A stretch of 64,000 nt of DNA from Dactylonectria macrodidyma (lineage: Eukaryota; Ascomycota; Sordariomycetes; Hypocreales; Nectriaceae). Made by a program: the position numbers and the translations under genes. Shown here piece by piece: positions 24,615 to 57,022 of the stretch. The DNA lies in the NCBI GenBank assembly GCA_020744425.1, contig JAGMUV010000001.1, positions 3,844,001 to 3,908,000 of the forward strand, read 5' to 3'. Position 1 is the first letter of the stretch. Each line of letters begins with the position of its first letter. The notes beneath the pieces are model-generated. The model ran no database searches. It saw nothing but the letters and a program-made list of their open reading frames with translations, and was not told where the DNA came from.

Positions 24615-27600
24615 TCAAGGCGATGTTTTCAATGAAGATTTAGCACCATGCAATTTGAGCAGCCGCACGACGGCCACAGACGCGGGCCTATGCCCAGTCT
24701 CGACGGCATGCAACAGCGGCGTCCGGCCATCCTTATCAGCCGCCTCAATTTGCGCGCCCCGGTCGAGCAGTAGCTGTACGATGGCCTCAGATGCAGACAT
24801 GTACCCGTTCGTCGCAACATGCGACAACGGCGTCCGGCCGTCCTTGTCGGCCGCCTCGATCTGTGCGCCCCGGTCAAGTAGCAGCCGCACGATGGCCTCA
24901 GACCCGAACATGTTCGCAGCGGCATGCGATAGCGGCGTCTGGCCATCCTTGTCGGCCGCCTCAATTTGCGCGCCCCGGTCGAGCAGTAGCTGTACGATGG
25001 CCTCAGATGCAGACATGTGCCCGTTCTTAACAGTATATAATAGTGGTGTCCGGCCGTCTTTATCGGCTGCCTCGATCTGCGCGCCTCGGTCGAGTAATAG
25101 CCGCACGACGGCCTCAGACCCGAACCTGTTTGCAGTGGCATGTAATAGCGGCGTCCGGCCATCCTTGTCAGCCGCCTCAATTTGCGCGCCCCGGTCGAGC
25201 AGCAGCCGCGTGACAGCCCCGGACCCGAGGTCGGCATGCGATAGCGGCGTCCGGCCATTTCTATCAGCCGCCTCAATTTGCGCGCCCCAGTCGAGCAGTA
25301 GCCGCACGACGGCCTCGTGCCCGTTCGCGGCGGCATACGACAGCGGTGTCCGGCCGTCCTTGCCGGCCGCCTCGATCTGTGCGCCTCGGTCGAGCAGCAG
25401 CCGCACGACAGCCTCATACCCGTTCTTAACAGTATGTAATAGCGGTGTCTGGCCGTCCTTATCAGCCGCCTCGATCTGCGCGCCCCGGTCGAGTAATAGC
25501 CGCACGACGGCCGCAGACCCGGACCTGTTTGCAGTGGCATGTAATAGCGGCGTCCGGCCATTTCTATCAGCCGCCTCAATTTGCGCGCCCCGGTCAAGTA
25601 GCAGCCGCACGATAGCCTCAGACCCGAACCTGTTCGCAGCGGCATGCGATAGCAGCGTCCGGCCATCCTTATCAGCTGCCTCAATTTGCACGCCCCGGTC
25701 GAGCAGCAGCCGCATGACGGCCTCATGCCCGTTCGCGGCGGCATACGACAGCGGTGTCCGGCCGTCCTTGTCGGCCACCTCAATTTGCGCGCCCCGGTCG
25801 AGCAGTAGCTGTACGATGGCCTCAGATGCAGACATGTGCCCTTTCTTAATAGTATATAACAGCGGTGTCTGGCCGTCTTTATCGGCTGCCTCGATCTGCG
25901 CGCCCCGGTCGAGCAGCAGCCGCACGACGGCCTCGTGCCCGTTCTCGATGGCATATGATAGCGGTGTCCGTCCTGCCTTGTCCTTTGACTCGACATCGGC
26001 GTTATACTTGCCCGAAGCGAGGATAAAAGCAAGGATAATCTCGTCGCCACCCGCTGCTAGATATGAGAGGGGGCTTCGTTGTCGTGAAAACTTGAAGTCG
26101 CGTCCAAAATGAGCTTGTTTCTTTCCGTCCTGGTAATATTGTTCACACAGGCTGTGAAGTGGAGACGTTACGGGCTCGGCTTCCGCCTGGGCTTTCAAAA
26201 GTGTCCAGACCGCTTCGCGACTGCCCGTAGCTAGCGCGGCAAAAATTGGCGGGCCATAACGCTCGCCTTCTACTTGGAAGCAGGATAGGTTGCTCGAGTG
26301 GCTTCCAATGAGGCTCGCCAGGTTATGCTCCGCTAATATATATAAGAGACTTGCTTCAGGAGTATGTCGGCGCACTTCATGTCTTTCAAATAGATTGTCG
26401 TGCTTAATCCAGTCAGCAACCTGAAAGGTCTGGAGAAAACTCGTCTGGTTGACGCCGCCCACTCCTGCTGCGTCTGCATGATACAGGACATTCCGTACAG
26501 CATACTCTAAGAACGGAAACGCTGTATCTGCCGATTGGCGGGCTTCTGCGGCTCGCTGGGATGATGCTTTCGGGAGTGAGACGCTAATATTCAGATCAGC
26601 GATACCGATACTCATGTAGCCGAGACAACACTGCTTTAGTCGCTCGTGGCTTTCTCCTTGGAAGTTCCCTCCGAGGTCAGACCAAATTTCCTTGAGTCCA
26701 TTTTCTTTGAGAAGGAAGTCCCTGACTGACTCGTGGATGAATTGAACCGTCGGGTATTTTTTAGACCTGGTGACTTCGGCAAGCCCTTTGGAGGAACTGA
26801 GGATAAATTTTTTGATATCGGCTTCTTCAATTTCGTCGGGATTCCAATCGGATATAGCCTTAGGGTCAACGCCGGAGAGGACGGCGAAGTACAACTGCTC
26901 CGGCTTCAACGGCTGCCTTGCGAAGAGCACCCACTGAATACACAGAAGTAGTTCACCTCTGTTGTGGTGATCGCGTGTCAAAATATCGCGGAACAGCTCG
27001 TGCAGGTCCCCAGGGATATCTCGGAGTTTTTGTCGAAGCGTATGCTTGCGGCCATGGTCATACTCCCGTTGCAGAATCCCTACCACCAGGACAATCCACA
27101 TAAAGACCCCAGATGCCTTTTCTTTAAGATCGACACGGATCTGCTCGGCGAGCTTACCATGTCCAATCTTCAGCTCGCTGTCTAGGTAGCTGACTAAATC
27201 CTGGCTATGTCCCTCTTGTCCTTCGAGAACCAGGTTGAGTCCTTTCGAAATCGTGATGTGAGGGTAGTGTCTGCTTGAAAAGCAGACTTGGAATGCAATG
27301 CCAGCTGGAGTAGTCAGTTCGCCCACGTGTTCGAAAAACGATATCATATCCCTGATCTGATGCTCGTCGCACTCATCTAAAGCATCAATGAAACATACTA
27401 GTGAGGACTTTCCAAGACCCAGCACAGCTTGTTCAAAGAGTACTTTCAGTGACTCGACGCTCCACTGCCGGGGGCCACTATTCCCTGTTACTAATCCAAG
27501 AGAATCGAAGACACCCTGAAGTTCTGGAAGTCGTTCAAGAAGCTGTAGTAACAGTGATCGATACATCCCGATTGTAGACTTCTCCAGGTTGTCTCCTCGC

Positions 27601-29127
27601 GCATTGAAAAAGAAAGCGATGATGACCCTGTGCTTCATCTTCGTCCGGGCATTGTTGAGAGCGAACTTCATTATCGTCGATTTCCCAGCCCCAGGCTTTC
27701 CTTTGATCCACAAGAAACCGTGATGGACGCCGAGCTTGCTGGGGTCAAGCCAGTCGAGATACTCGGATTTTCCCAGCAGCCATGTACATGTCTTGGTATG
27801 TGCTTTCTTGATGTTCTCGTGGCGAGCATCGATTTGGTTAAATCGCAACGAGTCCAGCAGCGCTCGTTTCTGTTCTTCATCTAGTGATCTTGGTGCTTCA
27901 CAGAAATTTAGCTTCAGTATATTCTCGCAGAAGCTATAAGTTAATGCTCCTTACCGGCTTGAACTCCATGAGGGAAGGCTTGCAAACCTCGGTTATGATC
28001 TTCATAAAGGCGCCTCTTGGGTCTACCATCTGTGACACAGAGAGGATGCTCGTCGAGATTGCGCTTAGGTCTGCCGTCCACGCCTATTTCCCACGGCATC
28101 ACCGAGGTAATAAGTCAGCTCAAGACCATTTGTGTAAGCGAAACAATTGTAATGCGTACTGACTATTCTGTATGGTCAGTCCTTCTCTTCGTATGGCGCT
28201 CTTGGGTGAAATCTCGGCTAAGACGGCCTTGGCGTAAGCGGCAGCCATTGCAGCAGCATACGGCTGCCATTCCTTATTCTTATGTTGGTCTCCATAGTCG
28301 CAGGCCCCTCGAATGACGCCCACGGGAATGCGGTTCATAGTCCCAGCCGCCTCCATCTCAAGGCCGATGATATTGTACTTATCTCTCAGCTCATTCCGTT
28401 TCCGGGCATTCTTCATCAGCTTTTCTCCTGAACCTATGGGTCCGTACCACACTCGAGTCCTCTTGGAATCTGGCCGTCGTTCTCGTTCTACCAGGCGCTC
28501 TGTCCCGCCGTCGTCAACTTGGTAGAGTACATCTTTCTCTTGTCCGGGGTCGATGAATGTGCCGTTAAGGTGTTCTTTGTCTTTGATATGCCTGTAATAC
28601 GGTAAAAACGTTTCTGCATCGTTCGGCGCCTTAAGTTTGATGCTGCCGATGGCTGATCGGACAACTGTTTCCGTAGTGGCCAATATGTGACCGAGGTGCA
28701 AGAGCTGAAAACCATCTTGGTCTGTCTCCTTGCCTAGGTCATAGGCTATAAGCCCCGCACTCTTGCCCTCGGGCACGCCCACGAGGACATCGCCAAGACG
28801 GATATCCAGTGGCGGATTTCGCGAGAGGTTGGGGAGTCCAGCCGCAACACCAACCAGCAAGCCGAACCAGAGATTCGGGAAAAACCTCTTCACCTGGCTG
28901 GCGAGGGCGGCGGCCGAGCCGGTGCCATATTCTTGACCGGCCGGTAGGGTTGCAATGACGATATTGTGCCCGCATACATCGCCAGCTTGGAAGACATAGT
29001 CATCACCGCGGCCGATCGGAAACCTGCCCCGGTGCTGATTATCCAACAAGTGTAGGGCAGCCCGTGCCTCGATCTCCAGCGGGGCGAGCCATGCGACAGT
29101 ATAGAGCTCGGGATCCAACTCGGTCAT
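24615..29127 (-). CDS. NLR-like protein: PNP-NACHT-ankyrin (three-exon model, 1458 aa)
   Basis: Fungal NLRs act as cytosolic non-self sensors; ankyrin repeats detect a ligand, NACHT oligomerises, and the N-terminal domain signals. Exon model: 29127-28164, 28070-27955, 27911-24615, all GT-AG and in frame. The PNP_UDP domain has YTVAWLAPLEIEARAAL, FGLLVGVAAGLP, DIRLGDVLVG and GLEMEAAGTMN. The linker reads LSVSQMVDPRGAF. NACHT follows with Walker A GKPGAGKST (about residue 435) and Walker B LVCFIDALDECDE (about 540). After a helical region come 13 nearly identical ankyrin repeats from about residue 1003 to the end. Internal splice junctions (93- and 43-nt introns) are inferred and less certain than the domains. 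No inactivating lesion seen. It is the intact relative of the broken PNP at 13331-14345. Confidence 0.85.
24640..25990 (-). repeat. Coding tandem repeat: 13 near-identical ankyrin units
   Basis: Thirteen units start with K/RxGxTPL and end LLLDRGAQIEAAD. Unit length alternates because the loop between the helices is short (NGHEAVV), medium (NRFGSEAIV) or long (NGHMSASEAIV). Near identity at DNA level on both synonymous and replacement sites points to recent unequal exchange or conversion. Confidence 0.9.
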
Positions 29128-39140: not shown

Positions 39141-39298
39141 AGAATCAACAAGTAAGTATTCTTCAGAACAAATGAGAGGAAGCGGCGCGACTGAATAACG
39201 AAATGCCAGATTTCATAGCGGACCACCAAACAGGGGAAATAGTTATAGTAACAGCAGCGACCCCGACGAAAAGGAGACGCATATAAAAGCAGGAGAGC

Positions 39299-39734
39299 TG
39301 TAACGGTCGTGTTCCCAGGCTAACCTGTACGTGGTATAGGGTAGCTCGGAAAGGGTTCCTAAGGGATAGACCAGGGTCTATGTTAGCAGAACGGTTAGGT
39401 CACACTTACTGAGCGGTAGTCGTAGTGTTACGTTAGGTAATAGTCAATGTACGATGATGCGTAGCAGTCAGAGTAGATTGAGGTAACCAAGTTGTATTGA
39501 TAGCTGAGGAGCTGGTGTCCTAGTGACAGCCAGTTCCTCGGGTTTATATACTATGTAGTATGAGGTTCGATCACCTTAGTTACAGGGGTGATCGCAGTGA
39601 TCACAGAAGTGATCACGGTGATCACGGGAGTGATCGCGGTGATCGCTCCACAGTTCGCTGTGATCGCTCGTAATTGGTGAGAAATTTGTGGGGGCCACGT
39701 GACGTCAGGCGTCTACGTTGCACGGGTCGTGACA
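39299..39734 (-). repeat. 3' LTR of the Gypsy element
   Basis: 436 bp, identical by eye to 46976-47411. Read on the plus strand it begins TGTAACGG and ends GTGACA. Confidence 0.95.
39568..39670. promoter_or_regulatory. Array of GTGATC(A/G)C palindromic motifs in the LTR U3
   Basis: About eight GTGATCRC or GATCACC-type motifs lie within about 100 bp, several being the perfect 8-mer palindrome GTGATCAC. In the element's transcription sense this is the U3 part of the LTR, where promoters and enhancers lie. The same array is in the other LTR at 47245-47347. The RIP-decayed sibling's LTR lacks it. Function as a binding-site array is inferred. Confidence 0.5.
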
Positions 39735-39739
39735 CGATG

Positions 39740-39749
39740 TCTCCCCTCC
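39740..39749 (-). promoter_or_regulatory. Polypurine tract (plus-strand primer) of the Gypsy element
   Basis: On the minus strand the sequence GGAGGGGAGA lies five bases before the 3' LTR, the usual place for the polypurine tract. Confidence 0.7.
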
Positions 39750-39848
39750 GTTGGTCCTTGTCCCCAAGGCCTACAAGTCGGCCGTCCCAAGTTTCTCCCT
39801 GGTTTGTCCAACCTTCCCCTGTAATTATTTTTCCGTAATGCTGACAGC

Positions 39849-40453
39849 ATGTCGAAGGTGAAATCGCAATCCGCCGCGCGTCGTCATCGTCTCTACGAAC
39901 TTATTGAAGAAATGGGCTCCGAGGTTATCGAGTGCTCAAATTGCGCTCAACGGAAGTTGAAGTGCAAAATGCTCGAGGGCATTTCCCGCTGTTCTGAGTG
40001 CGTTCGTCGCGGACGTTCTTGTGACGGCTCGGGGGAGTCGATCTCCGTATGTGAGTGTCTGTTCCTGCTTGACAAATTTTGTGTTTTTGTGTTGACCGGG
40101 CAGCTTCCCGTCTGACGGCTGAAAAGCGCCGTTTAGAGTCCGAGGAGGAACAAGCGGAAGAGGAGTTGATAGAATTGCAACAGCAAATGAATGAGCGTTT
40201 GTCTCGTCTGATGCGGCTTCGTCGTCAACGAAAACAGCTTCAAGAGAGAGGCGTGGAGATGGTGCGTCGGGGGCTTCGTTCCCTGGACGAGTTGGATGAG
40301 GCGGAGCGCCAAGAGGCTGATGCGGTCATCGAGGTTCAGGCCCATGGTGGGGTGGATGCGATCGATTGGTCCACTATGTTTGATTTTGGTGCTGCTTCTT
40401 CATCTTCCGGCGTTGCGCATGGAACGTCTTCAGTAGACGTTGCGCGTGGATGA
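39849..40453 (+). CDS. Antisense accessory gene of the Gypsy element: Zn2Cys6-like cluster plus coiled coil, 183 aa
   Basis: Encoded on the strand opposite gag and pol, between pol and the 3' LTR. Exons 39849-40050 and 40104-40453 join in frame across a 53-bp intron with GTGAGT donor and GGGCAG acceptor. The N-terminus is basic; then comes CSNCAQRKLKC...CSECVRRGRSC, spaced CX2CX6CX8CX2CX6C (residues 29-58), which fits the fungal Zn2Cys6 binuclear cluster. A Glu/Arg/Gln-rich helix follows (LTAEKRRLESEEEQAEEEL and on), likely a coiled coil of about 90 residues, then an acidic tail with DAIDWSTMFDFG. The last 80 bases overlap the end of pol tail to tail. A decayed homologue is at 53555-54154. 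It could bind DNA, element RNA or Gag; this is inference. Similar proteins are found in fungal genome annotations as hypothetical. Confidence 0.8.
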
Positions 40454-43400
40454 GGTTTTCCGGTGGTTGCCACGATGTTTCGCTTTCAGGGTAGTCTTTC
40501 CACTTTATGAGGTACATTGTTTTACCGTCGATTCTCTTCATGTCGCGGATTTCTTCGACGTGGTACTCTTCTGGTGATTCGACTTCCGGTTCGTGGTTGT
40601 AGCCGTTGTTGACCATGATGGTTCCTTTCGTAGGTTCCAGTAGTGATACGTGGAAAACGGGGTGTACCTTGACCTTTGGTGGTAGGTCTAACCTGTAGTT
40701 GTTTTTTGAGATTTTCTCCAGAACCTTGTAGGGGCCGATGAATTTGTAGTCGAGTTTTTTGCTTGGTCTGTCCGTTGTGAGATTTTTTGTTGCTAACAGG
40801 ACCATGTCCCCTTCCGAGAAGGATGGTCCCTCCAGCCTTTTCTGGTCGTAATATTTTTTCATTTGGTTTCGTACAAATTCGAGTTCGGTTTTCATTTCTT
40901 CGTGGAGATTCTTCAACTTGTCTGACGTCAGGATTGCTTTCGGGTTGATGATTCCGTCGCGTGGCGTGTGGTACGCGTCAGGTGTGAATCCGAAATTGGC
41001 GTAGGATGGCGTGAGCTTGGTGCTTTCATGTACCGAAGTATTGTAACTTAGCTGTGCCGTTGGTAACTTTTCTACCCAATCGTTTTGTTCGTAGTTGATG
41101 TAGCATCGAAGATACTGCTCGAGTATCTGATTTGTGCGTTCCGTCTGTCCATCGACCTGTGGTCGGAATGCCGTTGTAAGGCGGTGATTCAATCCCATCT
41201 GGGCCATCAAGGCTTGCCAGAATTTGGATGCAAACGGGGGTCCTCTGTCGCTTAGGATCTCCGTTGGTAAGCCGTGTACGCTGACGATGTTCCGTAGGAA
41301 CAGGTAGGCGAATTGTTCGGCATCCGTTGATTCGTGATAAGGTATAAAATAGGAAAATTTCGTGAGTCTGTCCACGATGACAAGAATGCTGTCATAGAAG
41401 GTACCATTCGCTGGGTCTTCTGACAGGGGTAACTTCGTAATGAAATCCATAGTGATGGAGTCCCATGGTCGCTCAGCGACTGGTAGGGGTTGTAGCTCTC
41501 CATATGGTTTGTGGCGTCGTGCCTTTGTTTTATCGCATGGTAAGCATTCCTTGATGACTTCCGTGACGATTTTCTTCATTCTAGGAAAAGTGTATGTCGT
41601 TTTGACTCGTTTAAGGGTTTTGTTGATTCCTTGGTGTCCGTGTAGGAGATGTACATGCATATCTCGTACTAGCGGTTTCTGTAATTCCGGGGGAACTCGT
41701 AGCCTCCGTGGTTCGAGTTGTGATTCGGGAATTGGGCAGGGTGCTCCTGTTACTCTGTCCATCTCGTATGTCTGATTGTATTCCCGTATTCGTTCGTGAA
41801 GTGTTTCTTGGGACACTGTTGCTGCGACTTGGACTGTTTTGTCGAGTTCGTCGACCCATTTGAGTTTCTTTCGTACCTTGTTGGGTTCGCAGTTTCGGTG
41901 ATCGCCTATCTCCCAGCACTCCTTTGCGTGTTGGTCGATGAGATCGTGGGGGCATCGATTGCATTGTCCCATGTGACTGATGCATGCTGATGTGAGGTCG
42001 CCGTGGAAATACTGGCTGAGTTTCTTGGCTAGGGTCCAAGGGTTCCCGTGGTGGTTGCCCTGATGGAAGTAAGCGATTGCTTGGGATCCTTGTGATCCTG
42101 TCAAGACTGCTTTTCCTTCCTGCCACAGTAGTTCTCTCGGGGCTGGTTGAATGTCGTGTATCCATTGTTCGAAGCTTTGTTCGGGCGTCTGTAGTCGTTC
42201 CAGCAAGTCCTCCGGTAGCCTGGACTCGCTTACTGCCGCAATGTACTTCTGCTTCAGATGTCCTTCGGGGGTGTAGGTCAATACCTGTTCGTTGACCTTG
42301 GGTATGTCTATTTCGAAGTCGGGTCGTCTACTTATCGCGTCGGCTCGTCCGTTTTCTGAGCCTTTCTTGTGGATGATGACGTAGTCAAATTCTGATAGGT
42401 ACTCCGCGTAGCGAAGTTGCCTTCCACTGAGCTCTTGGGTGGTAGCGAAGTGTGAAATGTTCTTGTGGTCCGTGTACACGGTGACCTGGTGTTCGCTTCC
42501 TAAGAGGTAGTGTCGGAATTCTTTGAAAGAATTGACTATCGCCAAGAATTCCTTGTCGTAGATGGGGTAGTTGAGTTCAGCTCCCTTCAGTGTGCATGAG
42601 TAGAACGCGATCGGGTGTAGGTTTCCTTCGTCGTCCCGTTGTCCAATCTGGGCTCCCAGGGCGAAGTTGGAAGCGTCGGTTTCCAATTCGATCGGTCGTT
42701 TTGGGTCAAAGGTTGCCAAAACGGGTTCACTGAGGATGGCTTGTTTCAAGTCGTTGAAGGCTTTCTGGGCCTTTGGGTTCCATCTGAATTCTACTTCTTT
42801 CTTCGTGAGTTCTGTCAAGGGTTTCGCGATTTTGCTGAATCCGCGAATGAACCTTCGGTAGTAATTGGCGAATCCTAGGAAGCTCTGTACTTCCTTGACA
42901 CTCTTGTCAGGTCTCGGCCAATCCTTGACAGCTTCGATTTTCTTTTTGTCCATTCGGATCTCGTTTGGTCGGATGGTATGTCCGAGGAAGTCCACTTCCT
43001 GTGCGTGGAACTTACTCTTCTCTGGTTCAACGAGTAGTTTTGCGTCTTGCAGCTTTTGCAACACCTTGTGGACGTGTTCCGTGTGCTCTTCTTCCGTGTC
43101 GGAGAAGATCAGGATGTCGTCTAGATAGCATACGACGAAAATGTCGAGGTGTTCTCTCAAAACGTTGGTGATCATCCGTTGGAAGGTCGCCGGTGCGTTT
43201 GTGAGTCCGAAAGGCATTACCAGGTATTCGAACAATCCAAACTTGGTTCGAAACGCTGTCTTCCATTCGTCTCCAGGCTTGATGCGGACCAAGTTGTAAG
43301 CGCCTTTTAGGTCGAGCGCCGTAAACCACTTCTTACCGTGAAGGCGATCCCTCAGTTCGGTAATCAGGGGTAACGGTGTTCGGTCTTTGTTCGTGATGGC

Positions 43401-44564
43401 GTTCAACTGTCGGAAATCCACAACTAGTCGGAGTTTGCCGTTCTTCTTGGGAACGAACATGACAGGGTAACCTGCGGAGGATTTTGATATCCTGATGTAT
43501 CCTTTTCGTAGCATTTCTTCGAGGTATTCCTTTAGCGCTTGAAGCTGAACTTCGTTGAGGTTGTAAAGTTTGAAGAACTTGGGTGAAGTTCCGTCTTTCA
43601 ACACAATGTCGTGGTCCCATTCACTGTGTTCGGGTAGACCTGTTTCCAGTTCTTCGGCAAACAGTTTCTCATAGATGCGGTAAGCAGGTGGTATGTTTTT
43701 CAGCCTGTCGTCTGCTTCCGATTGTTTCTTCATTTCTGCAAGGTCTTTGTCGAGTTTTGTCAGTTGACTTCGTACAAAGGCGATGGTGCGGCGTGTCTTG
43801 CTTCGTCGGGCTTTGCGGTGTTTGTATTTCGTGCCTCGGGGTGGGAAAGTTTCTGTCGTTTCTTTCGCCGATACTTCGCTGGTGCCGTGGTCAGTCGAAG
43901 TTTGAGATCTCGTGTCGTCGTCTGAATCTGATTCCCAAGAGGAGTGATCATCGACGTCGTCGAAGTTCACTTGGCCAGTCCTCCAGTTTATCATTGGGTT
44001 AACTCGTTTCAACCATGGGTACCCTAGAACCAAAGCGTGGTGCGCAACAGGTATAACATCGAACGAGATTCCTTCGTTTCGTCCTTCAACGAAAACCTTG
44101 AGATGATCAAGCTCTTTGGTTATTCTTCCGCTGTCGTAAGCGAACGGGGATCCTTCGAGGTTTTGTACTCTGTACGGATTTGCTTTGTCCTTCCATGGAA
44201 GTTTCAATGTATTCACCACTGCGGGGTGGATGTAATTGAATTCTGCGCCGCTGTCTACCAAGGCGGGCAGCCAGTTTCCCTTGATTCGTACCTGTATTTC
44301 TAGGTACCGTTTTGTCGTTTGTGCGCTTTTGGTCGCACATAGAGCTCTTGTTTCGAGGGGTTCCGCTTCCCCTAGCTCTGTGCCTATCTGTTGCTCTGTT
44401 ACAGATGGCGTCGGGAGTTTTTTGTATTCTCCGTTGTTCCGTCTCGTGAGGGTCGAAATGTCGGTCTGCGATTGTGCTCGTGCCACGCATTGACCTTGTC
44501 GTATACATGTATCTGGCATTCGGGTCGTTGGCAATCGGTGAATTTGGCATCGAGGTGTTGACAC
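40374..44564 (-). CDS. pol: Pol polyprotein: protease, RT, RNase H, integrase, chromodomain
   Basis: Open frame of 1396 codons entered by -1 frameshift from gag. Domains in order with approximate residues: aspartic protease LVDSGAEFNYI (Asp 104); reverse transcriptase about 330-500 with VDFRQLN, ALDLKGAYNLVRI and catalytic YLDD near 481; RNase H about 620-740 with ETDASNFALGA, DKEFLAI and YTDHKN; integrase zinc domain HLLHGHQ...CLPCDK about 970-1010; integrase core with MDFITKLP (1039), SDRGPPF (1102) and GQTERTNQ (1141); C-terminal chromodomain about 1325-1376 (EEYHVEEIRDM, LIKWKDYPESETSWQP). The chromodomain places the element among chromoviruses and may target integration to marked chromatin. 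No stop or indel. The first ~55 codons overlap gag and are probably not translated as pol. Confidence 0.95.
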   Translation of the reverse strand: MSTPRCQIHRLPTTRMPDTCIRQGQCVARAQSQTDISTLTRRNNGEYKKLPTPSVTEQQIGTELGEAEPLETRALCATKSAQTTKRYLEIQVRIKGNWLPALVDSGAEFNYIHPAVVNTLKLPWKDKANPYRVQNLEGSPFAYDSGRITKELDHLKVFVEGRNEGISFDVIPVAHHALVLGYPWLKRVNPMINWRTGQVNFDDVDDHSSWESDSDDDTRSQTSTDHGTSEVSAKETTETFPPRGTKYKHRKARRSKTRRTIAFVRSQLTKLDKDLAEMKKQSEADDRLKNIPPAYRIYEKLFAEELETGLPEHSEWDHDIVLKDGTSPKFFKLYNLNEVQLQALKEYLEEMLRKGYIRISKSSAGYPVMFVPKKNGKLRLVVDFRQLNAITNKDRTPLPLITELRDRLHGKKWFTALDLKGAYNLVRIKPGDEWKTAFRTKFGLFEYLVMPFGLTNAPATFQRMITNVLREHLDIFVVCYLDDILIFSDTEEEHTEHVHKVLQKLQDAKLLVEPEKSKFHAQEVDFLGHTIRPNEIRMDKKKIEAVKDWPRPDKSVKEVQSFLGFANYYRRFIRGFSKIAKPLTELTKKEVEFRWNPKAQKAFNDLKQAILSEPVLATFDPKRPIELETDASNFALGAQIGQRDDEGNLHPIAFYSCTLKGAELNYPIYDKEFLAIVNSFKEFRHYLLGSEHQVTVYTDHKNISHFATTQELSGRQLRYAEYLSEFDYVIIHKKGSENGRADAISRRPDFEIDIPKVNEQVLTYTPEGHLKQKYIAAVSESRLPEDLLERLQTPEQSFEQWIHDIQPAPRELLWQEGKAVLTGSQGSQAIAYFHQGNHHGNPWTLAKKLSQYFHGDLTSACISHMGQCNRCPHDLIDQHAKECWEIGDHRNCEPNKVRKKLKWVDELDKTVQVAATVSQETLHERIREYNQTYEMDRVTGAPCPIPESQLEPRRLRVPPELQKPLVRDMHVHLLHGHQGINKTLKRVKTTYTFPRMKKIVTEVIKECLPCDKTKARRHKPYGELQPLPVAERPWDSITMDFITKLPLSEDPANGTFYDSILVIVDRLTKFSYFIPYHESTDAEQFAYLFLRNIVSVHGLPTEILSDRGPPFASKFWQALMAQMGLNHRLTTAFRPQVDGQTERTNQILEQYLRCYINYEQNDWVEKLPTAQLSYNTSVHESTKLTPSYANFGFTPDAYHTPRDGIINPKAILTSDKLKNLHEEMKTELEFVRNQMKKYYDQKRLEGPSFSEGDMVLLATKNLTTDRPSKKLDYKFIGPYKVLEKISKNNYRLDLPPKVKVHPVFHVSLLEPTKGTIMVNNGYNHEPEVESPEEYHVEEIRDMKRIDGKTMYLIKWKDYPESETSWQPPENLIHAQRLLKTFHAQRRKMKKQHQNQT

Positions 44565-46915
44565 TTCGTAGGGTAATCCTCATCGTACTCCATGAGTTGT
44601 GCGATCCCTAGGTTTTCGTACCATTTCCTTACTCGGTAGTCTTCCATATCTTCTACCTCGTAGGGTTTCATCACTGGTTGACCATTTACTCGTACCGGGA
44701 AACAGTCTTGCTTGAGCTTCTCCGCGAGGTGCGTGGTGCATTGTTGGTAGATGCACGAAGCCCATGAGATTTCCTTGTGTTTCCGGTGTTCCCAGTGTAC
44801 TCGAGGGTCGTCTCCCCTGAGTCGTCGTTCGGTTGGGTTTCGTGGATTTCGTCCGTCGTTCCGATGTAGAGCTCGGATGTATATGTCCGCTTCTTCCGTA
44901 GGGTCCTGTGTTTCCCTGGCGAACTGTTCGATTTGGACGTCTTCCATCACGCGTACTAGCGCGTCTTGTTCTTCCGGAGTGATGCTTCGAAGGTCATCAT
45001 CGGATTCCGGGTATTCGTCTGCTGGTGCGAGGATGTCTTCGTCCTCGATGTTGTACCCGGCTTCCCTTGCCTGGTGTACGTCTCGTCCTGCGCTAACTTG
45101 TCGTGGAAAGTAGCTGCGTGTTGCACCGCTGTCCATCATGGCAGGTCGCATTTGTGGCCTGTTCGTGTCGGTCCATTCGTGATCGGGTTGTCGGTCTGGG
45201 ATCTCGAAGTCGTCGAAATCTTCCATTTGCGTTGGATTCTCCCTGAGTTGTCGGACCATAGCGATGGTATGACTTTCGTTGTTAGGCCGGGGCGCGATAG
45301 GTGGGTATCCTGTGGCTTGTGTGCCTGGGATGGCTGTCCATTGCTTGGCAGGTTTCTTCCCATTCTTTTGATCCCTTTTCTCCTTATGCTCGTCCTTATG
45401 CCTGTGGTAGCTGTCTCGCTTTATTCGCAGGCGGTGCTCTCGTCTGTCAGGATTCTTTTCCTCCTGTTCTCGTATTTGCTTCCATCCGGTCAGGTTTGAG
45501 TTTGTGCCTGGCCTGATCGCTCCTGGTTCCAGAAGTTCCTTTGTTCTGGGGTTGTCGGTGTATTTCAGGTCTTCCATCCAGTCCCACGGTGGGGCTGCGC
45601 CGTTGAAGGTTCCGTCGAAGCCGCTTCGGGTCATGTTGATGGATCGGACTGGGAGTTCGTCGTCCTTTTGCATCTTGACTGAATTGATGTTGCGGGTAGG
45701 CGTGGTGATGGGCTTGAATGGTTTCTTTTCCCTCCTTGGTTTTTTGCAGTCGCGTGAAAGGTGTCCTGGTTCGTCGCAGTTGTAGCATTTGAACGTCTTC
45801 TTTCCCTGCTGGTGACGTTGCTGCACCGCTCCGAGTTCCATTGGTCCTGCTGCAGTACCGTAAGAAGTGTTGGGGGTTCGTTGTTTCCCCTGGTTGGCAT
45901 AGTTCTTCTTTCTCCAGCCGCTACTGCTGGCGTTGCCGTTTCGTTTTTCCATTCGTCGTTCGAAGAGTCGATTATCGATGGTGACGCACAGTTTGGCGTA
46001 AGCGTTGAAGGTGGTGGGTAGTGTCAGGATCTTGGACACTTCGTCTTTGACCTCATCCTTCATTCCTCTGTAGAACTCATCGATTGTTGTTTCTTCGTCC
46101 CAACTGAGCTTGGCCAAGTGGTATCGAAATTCCGTGAGATATTCCGACATTGCTCGCTTTTGATCCAGTTTCCGGATCGCTTTGAGAGCGTCGTGTTTCT
46201 CGTCCCATTCGCCGTAAGTGTCGATGAGTTTTTCTTCGTACAGTCTGAAGTTCCCAAAGAGCTCCTTGGTTTCGACACGGCGACTATCGTAGGGGTTCTC
46301 GACGAAGTCTCTCAAGATTGGTTCGAGTCCGCGTAGGGCCTTTCCTTCGAGCAGGCTCATTGCATGTCTGACCTTCAGTTCTTCGTTCGCGAACATGGTA
46401 GGGTAGTACATGAAGTATGATTTGAGCTGCGTGAGGTGCTCGCGAAGGTCCTTGGGGGTACCGTCGAACTTAGTTGGCATTGGCGGTTTGAGGGTTTCTC
46501 CAGCGTCACGAGGTCGTGCCTGCTGGGCTGGTGCGTTAAACCCGGTGAATTGTTCCGCCTGGCGCTGCTGTTCGTTCCTAGCAGCGGTTTGAGCTGTAGA
46601 CAACTCCACGATTCGTGCTTCAAGAGCAGCGATGGTGTTTGCGACGTTCGGGTCTCGAACAGGGTTCTCCTGTTGAGTTCGAAGAGCCGCGAACTGCGCT
46701 TCGTAGTGCTCGTGCGCTTCGTGGTTCAGCTTAGACATGTTGATCATTTCGTTGCTGAGGCGTTGGTTCTCAGCACGAAGTGCGATGATCTCTTCATCCT
46801 CGTCTCCGGACGAGTCCATGTCTCGGTCTCCGTCTGGGTCCTGGGCCCTACGCTGAGTAGCGGGTCCCTTGCCCTTGGAGGAGCCAGAGCTGGTAGTGGG
46901 AGTTGCGGGTGCCAT
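44399..46915 (-). CDS. gag: Gag polyprotein, unusually long (838 aa)
   Basis: The first ATG in the frame, at 46915, gives MAPATPTTSSGSSKGKG; a longer frame to 46963 has no ATG. An acidic region and coiled coil (residues about 40-110) precede a capsid-like retrotransposon gag domain (PTKFDGTPKDLREHLTQLK ... LDTYGEW-type helices, YLTEFRYHLAKLSWDE). A CCHC zinc knuckle CYNCDEPGHLSRDC lies at about 376-390. Beyond it, about 450 residues continue with RPAMMDSGATRSYFPRQ (Asp 595) and a Cys-rich segment (WASCIYQQCTTHLAEKL, CQHLDAKFTDCQRPEC). Typical fungal gags are shorter. The stop follows 18 nt after the slippery site. Frame relation to pol is -1 with a 166-nt overlap. Confidence 0.9.
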   Translation of the reverse strand: MAPATPTTSSGSSKGKGPATQRRAQDPDGDRDMDSSGDEDEEIIALRAENQRLSNEMINMSKLNHEAHEHYEAQFAALRTQQENPVRDPNVANTIAALEARIVELSTAQTAARNEQQRQAEQFTGFNAPAQQARPRDAGETLKPPMPTKFDGTPKDLREHLTQLKSYFMYYPTMFANEELKVRHAMSLLEGKALRGLEPILRDFVENPYDSRRVETKELFGNFRLYEEKLIDTYGEWDEKHDALKAIRKLDQKRAMSEYLTEFRYHLAKLSWDEETTIDEFYRGMKDEVKDEVSKILTLPTTFNAYAKLCVTIDNRLFERRMEKRNGNASSSGWRKKNYANQGKQRTPNTSYGTAAGPMELGAVQQRHQQGKKTFKCYNCDEPGHLSRDCKKPRREKKPFKPITTPTRNINSVKMQKDDELPVRSINMTRSGFDGTFNGAAPPWDWMEDLKYTDNPRTKELLEPGAIRPGTNSNLTGWKQIREQEEKNPDRREHRLRIKRDSYHRHKDEHKEKRDQKNGKKPAKQWTAIPGTQATGYPPIAPRPNNESHTIAMVRQLRENPTQMEDFDDFEIPDRQPDHEWTDTNRPQMRPAMMDSGATRSYFPRQVSAGRDVHQAREAGYNIEDEDILAPADEYPESDDDLRSITPEEQDALVRVMEDVQIEQFARETQDPTEEADIYIRALHRNDGRNPRNPTERRLRGDDPRVHWEHRKHKEISWASCIYQQCTTHLAEKLKQDCFPVRVNGQPVMKPYEVEDMEDYRVRKWYENLGIAQLMEYDEDYPTKCQHLDAKFTDCQRPECQIHVYDKVNAWHEHNRRPTFRPSRDGTTENTKNSRRHL
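44417..44423 (-). promoter_or_regulatory. Programmed -1 frameshift site A AAA AAC between gag and pol
   Basis: In the gag frame the codons are ACA AAA AAC, giving the canonical X XXY YYZ heptamer A AAA AAC six codons before the gag stop. A -1 slip leads directly into LPTPSVTEQQ of pol. Ten bases downstream, ATCTGT and ACAGAT can pair over a 9-nt loop, and a further AGGGG/CCCCT pair lies behind. The heptamer is kept at 61023-61029 in the decayed sibling. Confidence 0.85.
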
Positions 46916-46975
46916 AACAGCTTGTCGGTTATTGCTCAGCGTATAAGGTAACCGTCTGAACAAGAGCTATCAACG

Positions 46976-47411
46976 TGTAACGGTCGTGTTCCCAGGCTAA
47001 CCTGTACGTGGTATAGGGTAGCTCGGAAAGGGTTCCTAAGGGATAGACCAGGGTCTATGTTAGCAGAACGGTTAGGTCACACTTACTGAGCGGTAGTCGT
47101 AGTGTTACGTTAGGTAATAGTCAATGTACGATGATGCGTAGCAGTCAGAGTAGATTGAGGTAACCAAGTTGTATTGATAGCTGAGGAGCTGGTGTCCTAG
47201 TGACAGCCAGTTCCTCGGGTTTATATACTATGTAGTATGAGGTTCGATCACCTTAGTTACAGGGGTGATCGCAGTGATCACAGAAGTGATCACGGTGATC
47301 ACGGGAGTGATCGCGGTGATCGCTCCACAGTTCGCTGTGATCGCTCGTAATTGGTGAGAAATTTGTGGGGGCCACGTGACGTCAGGCGTCTACGTTGCAC
47401 GGGTCGTGACA
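46976..47411 (-). repeat. 5' LTR of the Gypsy element
   Basis: 436 bp, identical by eye to 39299-39734; followed outside by the second AGAGC target copy. Confidence 0.95.
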
Positions 47412-47439
47412 AGAGCGGCAGATATAGGGCAGGGTTCAG

Positions 47440-48880: not shown

Positions 48881-49009
48881 TAGGAAAGCCCCAAATAACC
48901 CAAAGAGGAAGGAAAACACATACAACCCCAAAGAAGAAAACACACACAACCCAACCACTAAACTAACTAGCTCCTTAAAAAAAAAAATCTGCAGCCTGAG
49001 CAGTTAACG

Positions 49010-52000
49010 AATAGTCTGCAAGGGTCAGAGAGTCAGAGACCGGTTGATCAACCGGATCCTTCCTGGCTGCTAGGTCTTAGAGACCTAGGGCTAGGAAGAC
49101 CGGCAGGGAGATTGGATTCCTCCCCAGCTCGAAGGTCCTGAAGACCTAGAGCTAGGAGAGACTGGGCGAAGGCTCCGCCAAGAGCTTGACGAATGGTCGG
49201 CGAAGGTGAGAGAGCCAGAGACCAGTTGATTGACCGGTCTTTCCTAGCTACTAGGTCCTTAGAATTAAGGGCTAGGATGACCGGCAGGGAGGTTAGGTTC
49301 CTCCCCAGCTCGAAGGTCTTGAAGACCTAGAGCTAGGAGAGACTGGGTAGGGACCTCGCCGAGGATTTAACGAATGGTTAGTAAAGGTCAGGCGGTCAGA
49401 GACCAGTTAATTAGCTAGATTTTTCCTAGCTTACTAGGTCTCAATAACCTAGGGCTATGGAGAGGGGCTAGCAGAAATTGGATTCCTCTCTAGCTGTGAG
49501 GTCTTAAGGGACTGACAGCTAGGGGACTAAGCAGAGACCTCGCCAAGGGTTTGACAAGCGGTCGGCGAAGGTCAGAGGATCTAAGACTAATTGATCAGCC
49601 GGATCCTTCCTAGCTGCTAGGTCTCAATAGCCTACGGCTAGGAGGACCAGCAGAGACTAGATTTCTCCCTAGCTGTGGGGTCTCGAGAGACAGACAGCTA
49701 GAAAGACGAAGTAAAGACCTCGCCAAGAGGTTAATAAGTAGTCAGCAAGGGTCAACCAGCTAGCAACCAGTTAATCAATCAGATCCTTCCTAGCTTGCTA
49801 GGTCTTAAGGACCTAAGGCTAGGGGGATCGGCCGGGAGACTGGATTCCTCCCCAGCTCAGAGGCCTTAGGGACCTAGGGCTAGAGAGACTAGGTCGAGAC
49901 CTCGCCAAGGGTTTGACGAGTGGTCAGCGAGGGTCAGGTAGTTAGGAACCAATTGATCAGCCGGATCCTTCCTAGCTTACTAGGTCTTAATGACCTAAGG
50001 CTAGGAGGACTGGCAGAGACTAGATTTCTCCCTAGATGTAGGGTCTTGAGAGACGGATAGCTAGAGAGACGAAGGGCAGAGAGAGACCTCGCTAAGAGGT
50101 TGATGAGTGGTTGGCGAAGGTCAACCAGCTAGAGACCAGTTGATTAACTGGATCCTCCCTAGCTTACTAGGTCTTAAGGACCTAGGGCTAGAAAGAGGAG
50201 TTTAGTAGAGATTGGATTCCTCCCCTAGCTTGAAGGTCTTAGGAGGCTAATAGCTAGAGAGTCTGGGTAAAGACCTTGCTAAGGGGTTGACGAATAGTTA
50301 GCGAGTTATAGAGTCAGAGGCTAGTTAATTAACCGGATCCTCTCTAGCTGCTAGGTCTTAGAGACCTATAGCTAGGGAGAGACTAGCAGAGACCTCGCCA
50401 AGGGTTTGATAAGTGGTCGGCGAAGGTTAGAGAGCCAGAGACTAGTTAATTAACTAGATCCTTCTTAGCTGCTAGGTCTCAGAGGCCTAGGGCTAGGAAG
50501 TCCGGGCAGAGAGAATGGGTTCCTCCCCAGCTCGAAGGTCTTAAGGACCTAGGGCTAGGGAGACTAAGCCGAGACCTTGCCGAGAGGTTAACGAATAGTT
50601 AGCAAAGGTCAGAGAGTTAGGGATCAGTTGATTAACCGGGTCCTCTCTAGCTGCTAGGTCTTAGAGACCTAGGGCTAGGAAGACCGGCAGGGAGATTGGG
50701 CTTCCTCCCCAGCTTGAAGGTCTTAAAGACCCAGAGCTAGGAGAGACTGGGTAGAGACCTTGCTAAGAGTTTAACAAGTAGTCAGCGAAGGTCAGAGAGT
50801 TAGAGACCATTTAATTAACCGGATCCTCCCTAGCTCAGAGGTCTTAGAGACCTCAGGCTAGGGCGAGGGATCTAGTAGAGATCGGATTCCTCCCTAGCTA
50901 TAAGGTCCAGAGAGACTGATAGCTAGGGAGACTAAGCCGAAACCTCGCTAAGAGGTTAACGAATAGTTGGCGAAGGTCAGAGAGTTAGGGATTAGTTAAT
51001 TAACCGGGTCCTTCCTAGCTGCTAGGTCTCAGAGACCTAAGGCTAGGAAGACCGGCAGAGGTTGGGTCCCTCCCTAGCTAGGAGGTCTTGAGAGACTGTA
51101 AGCTAGGGAGTTCGATAGAGACCTCGCTAAGGGTTTTGATAAGTAGTTAGTAAAGGTCAGATCGCTAAAGACCAGTTAATTAACTAGATCCTTCCTAGCT
51201 GCTAGGTCCTAGGGGCCTAAGGCTAGGAAGTCTAAGCATAGAGATTAGGTTTCTCCCTAGCTATAAGGTCTCGAGAGACTGATAGCTAGAGAGATGAAGT
51301 AGAGACCTTGCTAAGAGGTTAGTGAATAGTTAGTGAAGGTTAGAGAGTTAGAGACCATTTGATTAACCGGATCCTCCTTAGCTCAGAGGTCTTAGAGACT
51401 TCGGGCTAGGGCGAGGGATCTAGTAGAGATTGGATTCCTCTCTAGCTCGAAGGTCTCAGGAACCTAGGGCTAGGAAGGCCAGCAGGGAGATTGGGTTCCT
51501 CCCTAGCTTGTGAGGTCTTGAGGGACTGTAGGCTAGGGAGTCCGAGCCAGCAGAGACCTCGCCGAGGGTTTGACGAGTGGTCGGCGAAGGTCAGATCGCT
51601 AGAGACCAGTTGATTAACCGGATCCTCCCCAGCTGCTAGGTCTTAGAGACCTGAGGCTAGGAAGACCGGCAGGGAGATTGGGTTCCTCCCCAGCTGTGAG
51701 GTCTAGAGAGACTGACAGCTAGGGAGTCCGGGCAGAGACCTTGCCGAGAGGTTGACGGGTAGTCAGCAAAGGTCAGTCAGTTAGAGACCAATTAATTAGC
51801 AGGATCTTTCCTAGCTTACTAGGTCTTAATGACCGAAGGCTAGGAAGACCGGCCAGGAAACTAGATTCCTCCCCAGCTCGAAGGTCTTAAAGACCTAGGG
51901 CTAGAAAGAGGAGTCCAGCAGAGAGATCGGGTTCCTCCCCCAGCCGTGAGGTCCAGAGACTAGCAACTAAGGAGACTAAGCCGAGACCTCGCCGAAGGTT

Positions 52001-52490
52001 TTGACAAGTGGTCGGCAAAGGTCAGAGAGTCAGGGATCGGATGATTAACCGGATCCTCCCCTACTGCTAGGTCTCAGAGACCTTGGCTAGGAAGAGGGTC
52101 CAGCAGGGATTGGATTCCTTCCTAGCTGTGAGGTCTCGAGAGACTGACAGTTAGGGAGACGAAGGGCAGAGAGAGAGAGAGAGAGACCTTGCTGAGATAT
52201 TGACGAGTGATTGGCAAAGGTTAACTAGCTAGAGACCAGTTGATCAACCGGATCCTCCCTAGCTTACTAGGTCTTAAGGACCTAGGGCTAGGAAGATCGG
52301 CAGGGAGATTGGGTTCCTCCCTAGCCGTGAGGTCTCGAGAGACTGATGGCTAGAGAGACGAAGCAGAGACCTTGCTAAGAGGTTGACGGGTAGTCAGCGA
52401 AGGTCAGTCAGCTAGAGACCAGTTAATTAATCGGATCCTTCCTAGCTTACTAGGTCTTAAAGACCTAGGGCTAGGGGGATCGGCGGGAAC
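49010..52490. repeat. Hairpin-rich satellite: about 19 units of ~180-185 bp
   Basis: The anchor motif (gaccagttgattaaccggatcctt and variants) recurs about every 180-184 bp; anchors fall at 49051, 49233, 49413, 49597 and 49777, then continue to about 52430. A few units are shorter (about 120) or longer (about 250). Each unit carries two inverted motifs: CTAGGTCTTAGAGACCTAG (8-bp stem, 3-base loop, with flanking TAGC/GCTAG pairing) and AGCTC..AGGTC....GACCT..GAGCT. The hairpin halves vary together in several units. Units also hold a conserved acctcgcc(a/g)agg...tga(c/t)ga(a/g)t(g/a)gtc block. No open frames. Identity between units is moderate, so the array is not very recent. Confidence 0.9.
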
Positions 52491-53043
52491 CTGGCTAAGG
52501 CTGTCTTTTCTGTATAGTGAGGGATTAGTAGTGCCAGGCTAGCCTTTTCCTCTTCTAGACCTTAGTCAGTTAGTAAGGGTTAAGGTTAGGGGCTCGCAGT
52601 AGCTAGCAGTCTCTAGGAAAGGCCTCCAGCTTCTAGAGGGAGATAGTAAAAGTTAATAATATCCTTATAAGGACTAAGTTCTAATTAGCCTAAAGGGCGA
52701 AGAGCACTTAATTAACTTAGTTAAGATAAGATATATACTATATCTTAACCTCTTTTTAGCTAAGTCTTATCTCTATATTAACTAGCAAGCATAGCATTAT
52801 TAGCATTAGCTGTAATAATAAAAGCATTAGCCCTTATAAGTCATTCATTTCATTAAGTAAATCCAGTCAATCTAATCAATCCATAAAGGGGTTCTATAAC
52901 TATATATAGTAGTAGGAAAAAGGATTAAAAAAGAGGTTAGAAAAGGAAGGTTCTACTATTACTCAATTGATTAAGTAAACAGCACTATATGCCTTATAGC
53001 ACTAGGCTCAGCTTAGGGTCAGCAAGGTCTTACCATACCTTCA
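52491..53043. other. AT-rich spacer between satellite and decayed Gypsy element
   Basis: No gene. AT-rich, RIP-like sequence without a recognised repeat. Confidence 0.4.
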
Positions 53044-53460
53044 TGTAACAGTCGTGTTCCCAGGCTAGGCTATACGTAGTATAGGGTAGCTCGGAAAGGG
53101 TTCCTAAGGGATAGACCAGGGTCTATATTAGTAGAACGGTTAGGTCACACTTACTAAGCGGTAGTCGTAGTGTTACATTAGGTAATAGTTAATATATGAT
53201 AATGCGTAGTAGTCAGAGTAGATTAAGGTAACCAAGTTATATTAATAGCTAAGGAGCTGCTCATACTAGATATACACTTCTTAGGCGTCTATATAGTTAT
53301 AATATAAGTTAGATTATTAGGATTATTTAATAATCCTAATAATCTTAGATTACTTAGATTATCTAGTGTTTTAAGTAATCTATATGTAATTAGGGCGAAA
53401 AGTAAGGGTATTATTAGTATATATAATTAGGTTATAGCTTAGTTAGTATAGGTTATAATA
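53044..53460 (-). repeat. 3' LTR (left) of the decayed Gypsy element
   Basis: The first ~230 bases match the intact LTR with C/G-to-T/A changes. The rest matches only the right LTR at 63627 and contains an inverted TAATAATCCTAATAATC-type motif. It is less mutated than the right LTR. Confidence 0.8.
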
Positions 53461-53554: not shown

Positions 53555-54154
53555 ATGGCTAACCGTATTATTAAGAAATGCAAACCTATTATTATAAAAA
53601 CTAAGCAATATAACGCCCTTCTTAAGGTTATATTTTCTCATTAGATTACTATAAAAAATTCCTACTCCTTCTATAAGCAGACTGGGGCAACCTATTCTTC
53701 ATCTAAGGATAATTCTTCTTAGTACTTTAAATACATCTAGCTAAATAAGCCTTTTTATAATGCCCACAGCCTTTCTCCTTAGTAGCTGTATAAAGTCACT
53801 ACTTATTACGCTTATTTTAAGTCTGAGTTAAAAGAGGCTAAAAATACCTATTACTAAATAGATATGAAGATTGAGTGTCTTTAAAAATAAAAGAAATTAT
53901 AGTTTAAGAAGATAATACGCACTATATCGCATAGTATTAATAATATAAAGGAGCTCGAGTGGGTAAAAAGAGAGGAAGCTGAGTAAGAAGCATAGTACTA
54001 AGTCACTTCTCTTTCTTCTTCTGAGTGCTATTCTTTTACTAAAGGTATTCTACTTAAAGATTTTTTAAATACATAGGATGGGGTTTACTTAGAAGTATTA
54101 TTAGATCTGTCCCTTATTATTACTTTTAATTTCATTTCTTCTTCTAATATTCTA
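53555..54154 (+). pseudogene. Decayed homologue of the antisense Zn2Cys6-like gene
   Basis: From the ATG at 53555 one frame runs about 200 codons without an indel, broken only by TAG/TAA codons. At the expected place, Tyr codons 37, 40, 47, 57, 60 and 68 follow the spacing X2, X6, X9, X2, X7. All are TAC/TAT, i.e. one G-to-A step from Cys codons. This is the Zn2Cys6 pattern after RIP. The downstream part is Lys/Glu-rich like the coiled coil of the intact gene. Sequence otherwise differs strongly from the intact copy. The MULE insertion lies at its end. Confidence 0.7.
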
Positions 54155-54155
54155 T

Positions 54156-54199
54156 GAGTAGTGCTATTCGGGCTGTATGATATTGCTATCCGGGCTGTA
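54156..54199 (+). repeat. Left terminal inverted repeat of the MULE
   Basis: 44 bp, perfect inverse of 56979-57022. Contains the motif TGCTATYCGGGCTGTAT twice (54162 and 54184), a likely transposase binding site. Confidence 0.92.
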
Positions 54200-54399
54200 T
54201 CGATCACATGACCACGTAATTTTCAACCGCATTCGGCAAATGCTCCCCGCCACACCAAAATTACAGTGTAAGTCAAAGAACGTGAATAACATCAGGCCAA
54301 TTCAATCAAGGTCAACACATCACAACAGCCCGCGAGCCCGGCTACAACCAAATCGTTCAAAAAACGCATTTCCGGTGTTTCTTCTGAAAAATAGTATTT

Positions 54400-56777: not shown

Positions 56778-56978
56778 TGTGACTCGTGAGAAATGGTTGT
56801 GTGGAATAGCAGAGGGGCGACGCGATAGTAAAAGGTCTAAGTTGGCCTAGGAATTGCGATCCGATATCGCGGGGTGTTGTAAGCGAGGGTGATCACGTGA
56901 CTATAAGCCTTTCCTAATGTGGCTAGCGTTTTGGAAGTCATGTGATAAATTTCCCTCTTTAGGCAAGCGTATTTTGGG

Positions 56979-57022
56979 TACAGCCCGGATAGCAATATCA
57001 TACAGCCCGAATAGCACTACTC
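56979..57022 (-). repeat. Right terminal inverted repeat of the MULE
   Basis: 44 bp, exact inverse complement of 54156-54199, followed by target copy TATTCTAT. Confidence 0.92.

Follow-up and report, generated by a model that had tools for sequence, protein, structure and literature searches.

We analysed a 64,000-nucleotide stretch of the genome of the fungus Dactylonectria macrodidyma (contig JAGMUV010000001.1, positions 3,844,001 to 3,908,000; hereafter the window). It contains a complete Gypsy retrotransposon of the chromovirus type on the minus strand (39299-47411, 8,113 bp) and, within it, a spliced gene that lies between pol and the 3' long terminal repeat (LTR), on the strand opposite gag-pol, and encodes a Zn2Cys6-like protein. 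A second element of the window, the sibling, has been decayed by repeat-induced point mutation (RIP) and carries an antisense frame of its own. The features of both elements, including their open reading frames (ORFs), are as follows.

39294..39298 (left) and 47412-47416 (right), no strand: target-site duplication AGAGC
39299..39734, minus strand: 3' LTR of the Gypsy element, 436 bp, same sequence as the 5' LTR
39545..39552, minus strand: TATATACT, probable TATA box of the sense promoter in the 3' LTR copy
39569..39665, no strand: U3 array of candidate binding sites
39735..39848, no strand: leader sequence from the LTR to the antisense ATG
39849..40050, plus strand: antisense gene exon 1, Zn2Cys6-like cluster
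40051..40103, plus strand: antisense gene intron, 53 bp, GTGAGT...GGGCAG
40104..40453, plus strand: antisense gene exon 2, long helix or coiled coil and acidic Trp-containing tail
40374..44564, minus strand: pol ORF, with protease, reverse transcriptase, RNase H, integrase and chromodomain (Pfam)
44399..46963, minus strand: gag ORF, with Retrotrans_gag and a CCHC zinc knuckle (Pfam)
46976..47411, minus strand: 5' LTR of the Gypsy element, with the same U3 array as the 3' LTR
53044..53459, minus strand: decayed 3' LTR of the sibling (right end placed by eye)
53555..54154, plus strand: RIP-decayed antisense frame of the sibling, readable without an intron, with Tyr in place of all six Cys

The element has the attributes of a Ty3/Gypsy chromovirus, namely gag, protease, reverse transcriptase, RNase H, integrase, a chromodomain, LTRs and a 5-bp duplication, and its two LTRs (436 bp each) are identical. 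The protease matches (PF13975 and PF13650) fall slightly below the Pfam cut-offs. Across the 77.3-Mb genome the antisense gene has at least 22 matches, with at least 13 copies at 100% identity and at least nine at 67-89%. Whole elements were read for 12 of the 13 identical gene copies. In each of the 12, the two LTRs match exactly and the 5-bp duplication is perfect; 10 of them, the window's included, are identical across 8,113 bp. The window element's family, denoted family A, has therefore been active very recently. Two further places with family A LTR matches (G000:C8:880426-880773 and C12:102657-103004) have no adjoining antisense-gene match and are probably solo LTRs.

The antisense gene begins with an ATG at 39849 and encodes 183 amino acids in two exons. 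The first-pass annotation of the window had described this gene with its ATG, its GTGAGT...CAG intron of 53 bp and its length of 183 amino acids, and had given it an 80-bp overlap with pol; these details all hold, the antisense stop lying inside the pol ORF (40374-44564, minus strand) on the other strand. In family C, a distinct family of the same genome, the overlap of the antisense gene with pol is 83 bp. The leader presumably includes the polypurine tract of the element, a stretch that is purine-rich on the minus strand. An alternative donor, GTCTGT (47-bp intron, 185 amino acids), likewise leaves the antisense frame open; we favour GTGAGT because the linker then equals in length that of homologues without intron residues. 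Twelve homologue gene calls (P0001, P0003, P0013, P0014, P0016, P0017, P0022-P0024, P0038, P0040 and P0054) contain an intron-like block of residues between 'CDG..V..S' and the helix, which fits gene calls that ignore introns. Other homologues have no such block, and their linker has the length found in the spliced window protein. The intron position is the same in family B, where eight of ten aligned copies have GTGAGT and the other two (L052 and L055) have ATGAGT, a RIP-type change.

The six Cys of the window protein are spaced 2-6-8-2-6, in agreement with the pattern CX2CX6CX8CX2CX6C read from it earlier. Fungal Zn2Cys6 domains (PF00172) follow the spacing CX2CX6CX5-12CX2CX6-8C. The 2-6-8-2-6 spacing is found in 34 of 50 family sequences, and 49 of the 50 lie within the range tested, P0030 being without Cys1. 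The expectation that a profile search would recognise a Zn2Cys6 domain was borne out in part: exon 1 passes the PF00172 gathering score (21.3 against 21 bits), whereas the whole 183-residue protein (18.7), P0006 (11.1) and P0055 (13.7) miss it. We describe the protein as Zn2Cys6-like, with exon 1 at the Pfam gathering score and with zinc and DNA binding predicted.

Across the family, the layout is a zinc cluster, then a long helix, then an acidic Trp-containing tail. The most strongly conserved parts are the second cluster half and a helix motif, RG-EM-RRGL-SLDEL; the six Cys are retained, with few exceptions, in proteins whose identity to the first sequence is about 30-70%. The second loop of the cluster is almost invariant (VRRGRS in 27 of 49) and the first loop is variable. 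In Gal4-type clusters the bases are read by the first half, so this variation would fit family-specific targets. Seven of the 50 sequences have no usable tail under the rule applied; the tails of the other 43 are all net negative, 40 contain Trp, and Lys accounts for 0.5%. The Trp often stands within (I/V/F)DW, followed by hydrophobic and acidic residues, and acidic activation domains have a composition like that of these tails. Fungal Zn2Cys6 factors of the Gal4, Hap1, Lac9 and Pho7 type share the six-Cys spacing, the order of cluster, linker and helix, and the acidic tail. The antisense family differs from them in that its members are mostly about 180-250 amino acids long, have no recognised middle homology region and are borne by elements; within their cluster, basic character and conservation are both higher in the second half than in the first.

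A first search returned 33 homologous proteins, and a profile search returned 79, including most of the 33; several come from named fungal genera, Botrytis among them. The homology extends to BRTN of the Botrytis element Boty (BLASTP 37% over 132 amino acids, E=3e-22; profile E=7.4e-35). The brtn gene, likewise antisense between pol and the 3' LTR of a Gypsy element, also has the six Cys, the RRGL-LDEL helix and the acidic tail. By both homology and position the window gene is a homologue of brtn, a gene whose place and kind are already known, and the view of such a gene as unheard of finds no support. Two differences concern P0055: it lacks intron residues at the conserved position, where the window gene has its 53-bp intron, and it reaches only 13.7 bits to PF00172. 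The brtn gene of Boty-like Gypsy elements in Botrytis cinerea is said to go back to Zhao et al. 2011.

Antisense ORFs between pol and the 3' LTR are known from plant elements and from Boty, and the passages that describe them call their function unknown (PMC7264820, PMC11963269). In its passage on plant elements, with Boty as the fungal example, a 2020 review presents such ORFs as not clearly similar to any other protein (PMC7264820). A transcript of Monilinia (T6826) is described as similar to truncated Pol and BRTN, in a passage that gives no strand (PMC5987419). The plant elements Retand, Grande and RIRE2 share the antisense ORF between pol and the 3' LTR. According to the passages concerned, the antisense protein of Retand has a TRP28 domain with predicted DNA binding and a proposed regulatory role, and the element has family-specific tandem repeats. 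It differs in its protein domain, TRP28 being given there as restricted to flowering plants, and in that the repeats lie between pol and the 3' LTR, whereas those of the window element lie in U3 (PMC7264820, PMC11963269).

An integrase search of the genome gave at least 136 matches (136 of 266 candidates scored). Among the 55 stop-free matches, the antisense gene stands at the expected place in 33 (family A, 13; family C, 20), and the other 22 (D, 10; E, 9; F, 2; G, 1) have no match to P0006 or P0055 at E<=0.01. Matches with stops in pol were tallied for family B, whose pol is decayed and in which all ten copies carry the gene. Homologues of the kind that the first-pass annotation had proposed to look for, antisense at Gypsy 3' ends, were thus found in families A, B and C, so that at least three Gypsy families of the genome carry the gene antisense beside pol. 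Translated 3' stretches from the other families (F, 1; G, 1; D, 2; E, 2) have no six-Cys pattern. The LTRs assigned to D and E (173 and 193 bp; boundaries by eye) start close behind pol and therefore leave no room for an antisense gene. In a family F Gypsy element (L061:1594-2323; integrase 48% identical), pol is followed by antisense ORFs that contain a half cluster, KCSRCSKNGKPCEPV, and a possible coiled coil rich in Ala; perhaps they represent the same gene in distant or reduced form.

RIP produces transitions only, and we therefore counted transversions as RIP-blind changes. Between the window gene and the decayed copy L009, transversions occur at 2 of 552 exon sites, both of them third codon positions, and at 5 of 51 intron sites (p=6.6e-5). 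The same test gives p<0.01 in eight of nine decayed copies, L012 being the exception; since the nine share ancestry, these tests are close to one comparison. When families A, B and C are compared, third codon positions differ most, with a small excess between B and C and with provisional splice sites for C. In the nine RIP-decayed relatives of the window gene, every altered Cys codon has changed from TGY to TAY, as RIP predicts and as had been proposed for the Tyr codons of the sibling. The 13 recent copies do not differ at any position of the gene, exon or intron. We regard the antisense gene as real, conserved and selected. The proposal of a third element protein under selection has gained support from homologues in at least three Gypsy families, the shared intron position and the protection of exons relative to the intron.

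The U3 array of family A holds seven GTGATC and four GATCAC words (11 positions), most of them arranged in units of 21 bp whose half-sites are spaced by 9 and 12 bp, and adjoins the sense TATA box at 39545. Its self-similarity at lag 21 is 0.74 against a shuffle maximum of 0.47, in a test that is post hoc, as the array had been spotted beforehand; families B and C were examined afterwards. In family C, U3 contains CGCTCC/GGAGCG six times in mirror order, and in family B it contains GAGTGAGC four times (one LTR copy each). As for the probable TATA box, TATATACTA is present also in the LTRs of both families. The best 6-, 7- or 8-letter word in the A, B and C LTRs was equalled by 0-4 of 300 dinucleotide shuffles; in the D and E LTRs, the best words were no better than shuffles. 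The three families with the antisense gene carry different short-motif U3 arrays beside the TATA box, and the two without it (D and E) do not. Genome-wide, GTGATCRCNGTGATCRC has 63 forward and 58 reverse matches (palindromic places counted twice), with 0 for the reversed control, and its places, among the matches listed, adjoin U5-R matches of family A or its relatives, LTR-only sites included.

The sibling had been taken for a decayed copy with a homologous frame. The frame does start at 53555, is RIP-decayed and has Tyr at the six expected Cys places (spacing 2-6-9-2-7, by eye), but it is an exchanged, different version of the gene, and its backbone is one that the sibling has in common with the decayed copy L010. 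Among the pieces of the window the frame scores best against the family profile, self-match aside, at a weak 9.5 bits (E=0.13), with 0 of 2,000 shuffles listed at E<=10. The first 208 bp of the sibling 3' LTR (U5-R) are 91% like those of the window element; its U3 is without similarity to that element's and holds an inverted GATTAT-rich array of its own (by eye), altered by RIP. The frame stops at 54154 because a DNA transposon has inserted into its 3' end at 54156-57022, with an 8-bp duplication, TATTCTAT (ends by eye). This insert contains a 646-residue Mutator-like element (MULE) transposase ORF (54837-56777, minus strand) and has a G+C content of about 0.48-0.52, against 0.21-0.32 in the surrounding RIP-mutated element.

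Between the sibling and L010, transversions amount to 0.5% in U5-R and to 0-1.3% in 15 of 15 tiles from the end of pol through gag. Of the 111-bp leader tile, 83 bp align, with 3.6% transversions, and the last tile, mostly 5'-LTR U3, yields only a 94-bp match with 10.6%. The antisense gene and the 3'-LTR U3 do not align between the two copies. Judged by these alignments, the sibling and L010 are one backbone with unrelated blocks of antisense gene plus U3. The border of the block lies in the last bases of the gene, which overlap pol, and the alignment resumes about 40 bp before the gene stop. The L010-type block is retained in the four further decayed copies compared, and at least 800 of the 891 bp of the sibling-type block are covered in 10 of 58 matches, one of them being the match in the window itself. 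The same border may have seen a second break, as is suggested when the window element is compared with L009, L010 and L015: there are 0-3 transversions per 100 bp from the LTR to the gene end (5-6 in the intron bin), then 6, 12 and 4 in three bins from 40499 (the stop being at 40453) and 0-11 beyond, to which a faster change of the pol end could contribute. Against L009-L017, the window element shows about 1-2% transversions in the antisense gene, 0.5-4% in parts of the LTR and about 4-14% in gag (44566-46963), two of the nine giving no gag alignment. From these values the recent window family looks like a recombinant.

During reverse transcription, both LTRs receive their U3 from the 3' end of the RNA. 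As this end holds the pol end, the antisense gene and U3, and U3 is copied to both LTRs, one template switch would exchange the regulator together with its sites. The block pattern is observed; such a switch may be its cause, with a putative functional reason in regulator and promoter moving together. Tnt1 lineages reportedly differ in U3, a precedent for U3 exchange.

Elsewhere in the window, an array of direct repeats of about 182 bp, roughly 60-90% alike, lies near the recent Gypsy copy (49000-52520) and is a possible satellite. At 24615-27848 (minus strand), a 1077-residue ORF combines an NPHP3_N NTPase domain with many similar ankyrin repeats, which we take to be the layout of a fungal protein like the NOD-like receptors.

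We favour, with about as much confidence as doubt, the reading that the product of the antisense gene is a small Zn2Cys6 transcription factor of the brtn family, which forms dimers and acts on the LTRs of its own element. A transcript from in or near the 3' LTR would run against gag-pol and be spliced, the protein would dimerise through its modelled long helix, and the zinc cluster would bind the family-specific U3 array. Since the array has the sense TATA box on one side and the antisense ATG on the other, a single array with the protein bound to it could act for both promoters, that of gag-pol in the 5' LTR and that of the antisense gene itself in the 3' LTR. Given the conserved acidic, Trp-bearing tail, activation would be more likely than repression. 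Of the functions first suggested for the protein, an LTR-binding regulator remains the best reading, with the U3 array as candidate target and binding as a prediction. The Lys that makes contacts in Gal4 is, however, often absent, given the variable first loop, and adjacency alone would also link gene and U3. Beyond what is known of brtn, the new elements would be exon 1 at the Pfam Zn2Cys6 cut-off, the activator-like layout, the family-specific U3 arrays and the exchange of gene and U3 as a block. Among the matches listed from the open-licence literature, no paper linked a zinc cluster or Zn2Cys6 with an antisense retrotransposon gene by its title or the start of its abstract.

The same evidence for binding would serve a protein that represses gag-pol through the U3 array and so exerts copy-number or trans-silencing control, like HBZ of human T-cell leukaemia virus type 1 (HTLV-1) or Ty1 self-restriction; we consider this improbable. 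HBZ, too, is a nuclear regulator with a dimerisation helix, encoded by an antisense, spliced, LTR-proximal gene; it differs in being a leucine-zipper protein with no zinc cluster, and homology is not claimed. In a passage of one paper it is cited as an antisense-encoded nuclear protein. Swapping a repressor with its sites would also free an element from resident repressors. However, the conserved acidic and Trp-containing tail is more typical of activators, and the 13 identical gene copies mean that the gene did not prevent the burst. Next in order, and likewise unlikely, comes a zinc-cluster protein with a target other than the LTR: a tether to integration sites or chromatin, a nuclear-import factor or an antagonist of host silencing. 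The most conserved parts, the second half of the cluster and the RG-EM-RRGL-SLDEL helix motif, could form a protein-binding surface, and pol already has a chromodomain, but the family-specific U3 arrays and the single exchanged block of gene and U3 would be left unexplained.

We find it hard to believe that an antisense RNA, as a long non-coding RNA or a precursor of small interfering RNA, is the main product and the protein secondary: exons are protected and the intron is not, the six Cys persist, with few exceptions, among such divergent proteins, and the 13 recent copies show no difference anywhere in the gene, its intron among the parts compared. In its favour are the overlap with pol, convergent and about 80 bp long in each of two families, and the double-stranded RNA raised as a possible role of antisense ORFs in a passage of PMC7264820. 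That the gene is a functionless passenger, a host zinc-cluster fragment captured by one element, has been largely refuted and is very improbable, abundant as Zn2Cys6 genes are in fungi, by the 79 homologues, several from named genera including Botrytis, and by three Gypsy families with the gene antisense beside pol and its exons constrained.

If the gene does encode a regulator of its own LTRs, gene and U3 array could, as a rather doubtful extension, form a regulatory-specificity cassette that elements of the same backbone swap whole, changing which regulator their LTRs obey. A template switch near the pol end would then swap regulator and U3 sites together, and the swap may provide escape from, or avoidance of, cross-regulation by resident relatives. 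The immunity region of lambdoid phages, with its repressor and operators, is an analogue. If this fungal family consists of transcription factors that the elements encode for themselves and carry along with the arrays they bind, this would account for the gene's place next to the 3' LTR, and retrotransposons could change their regulatory identity by one template switch.
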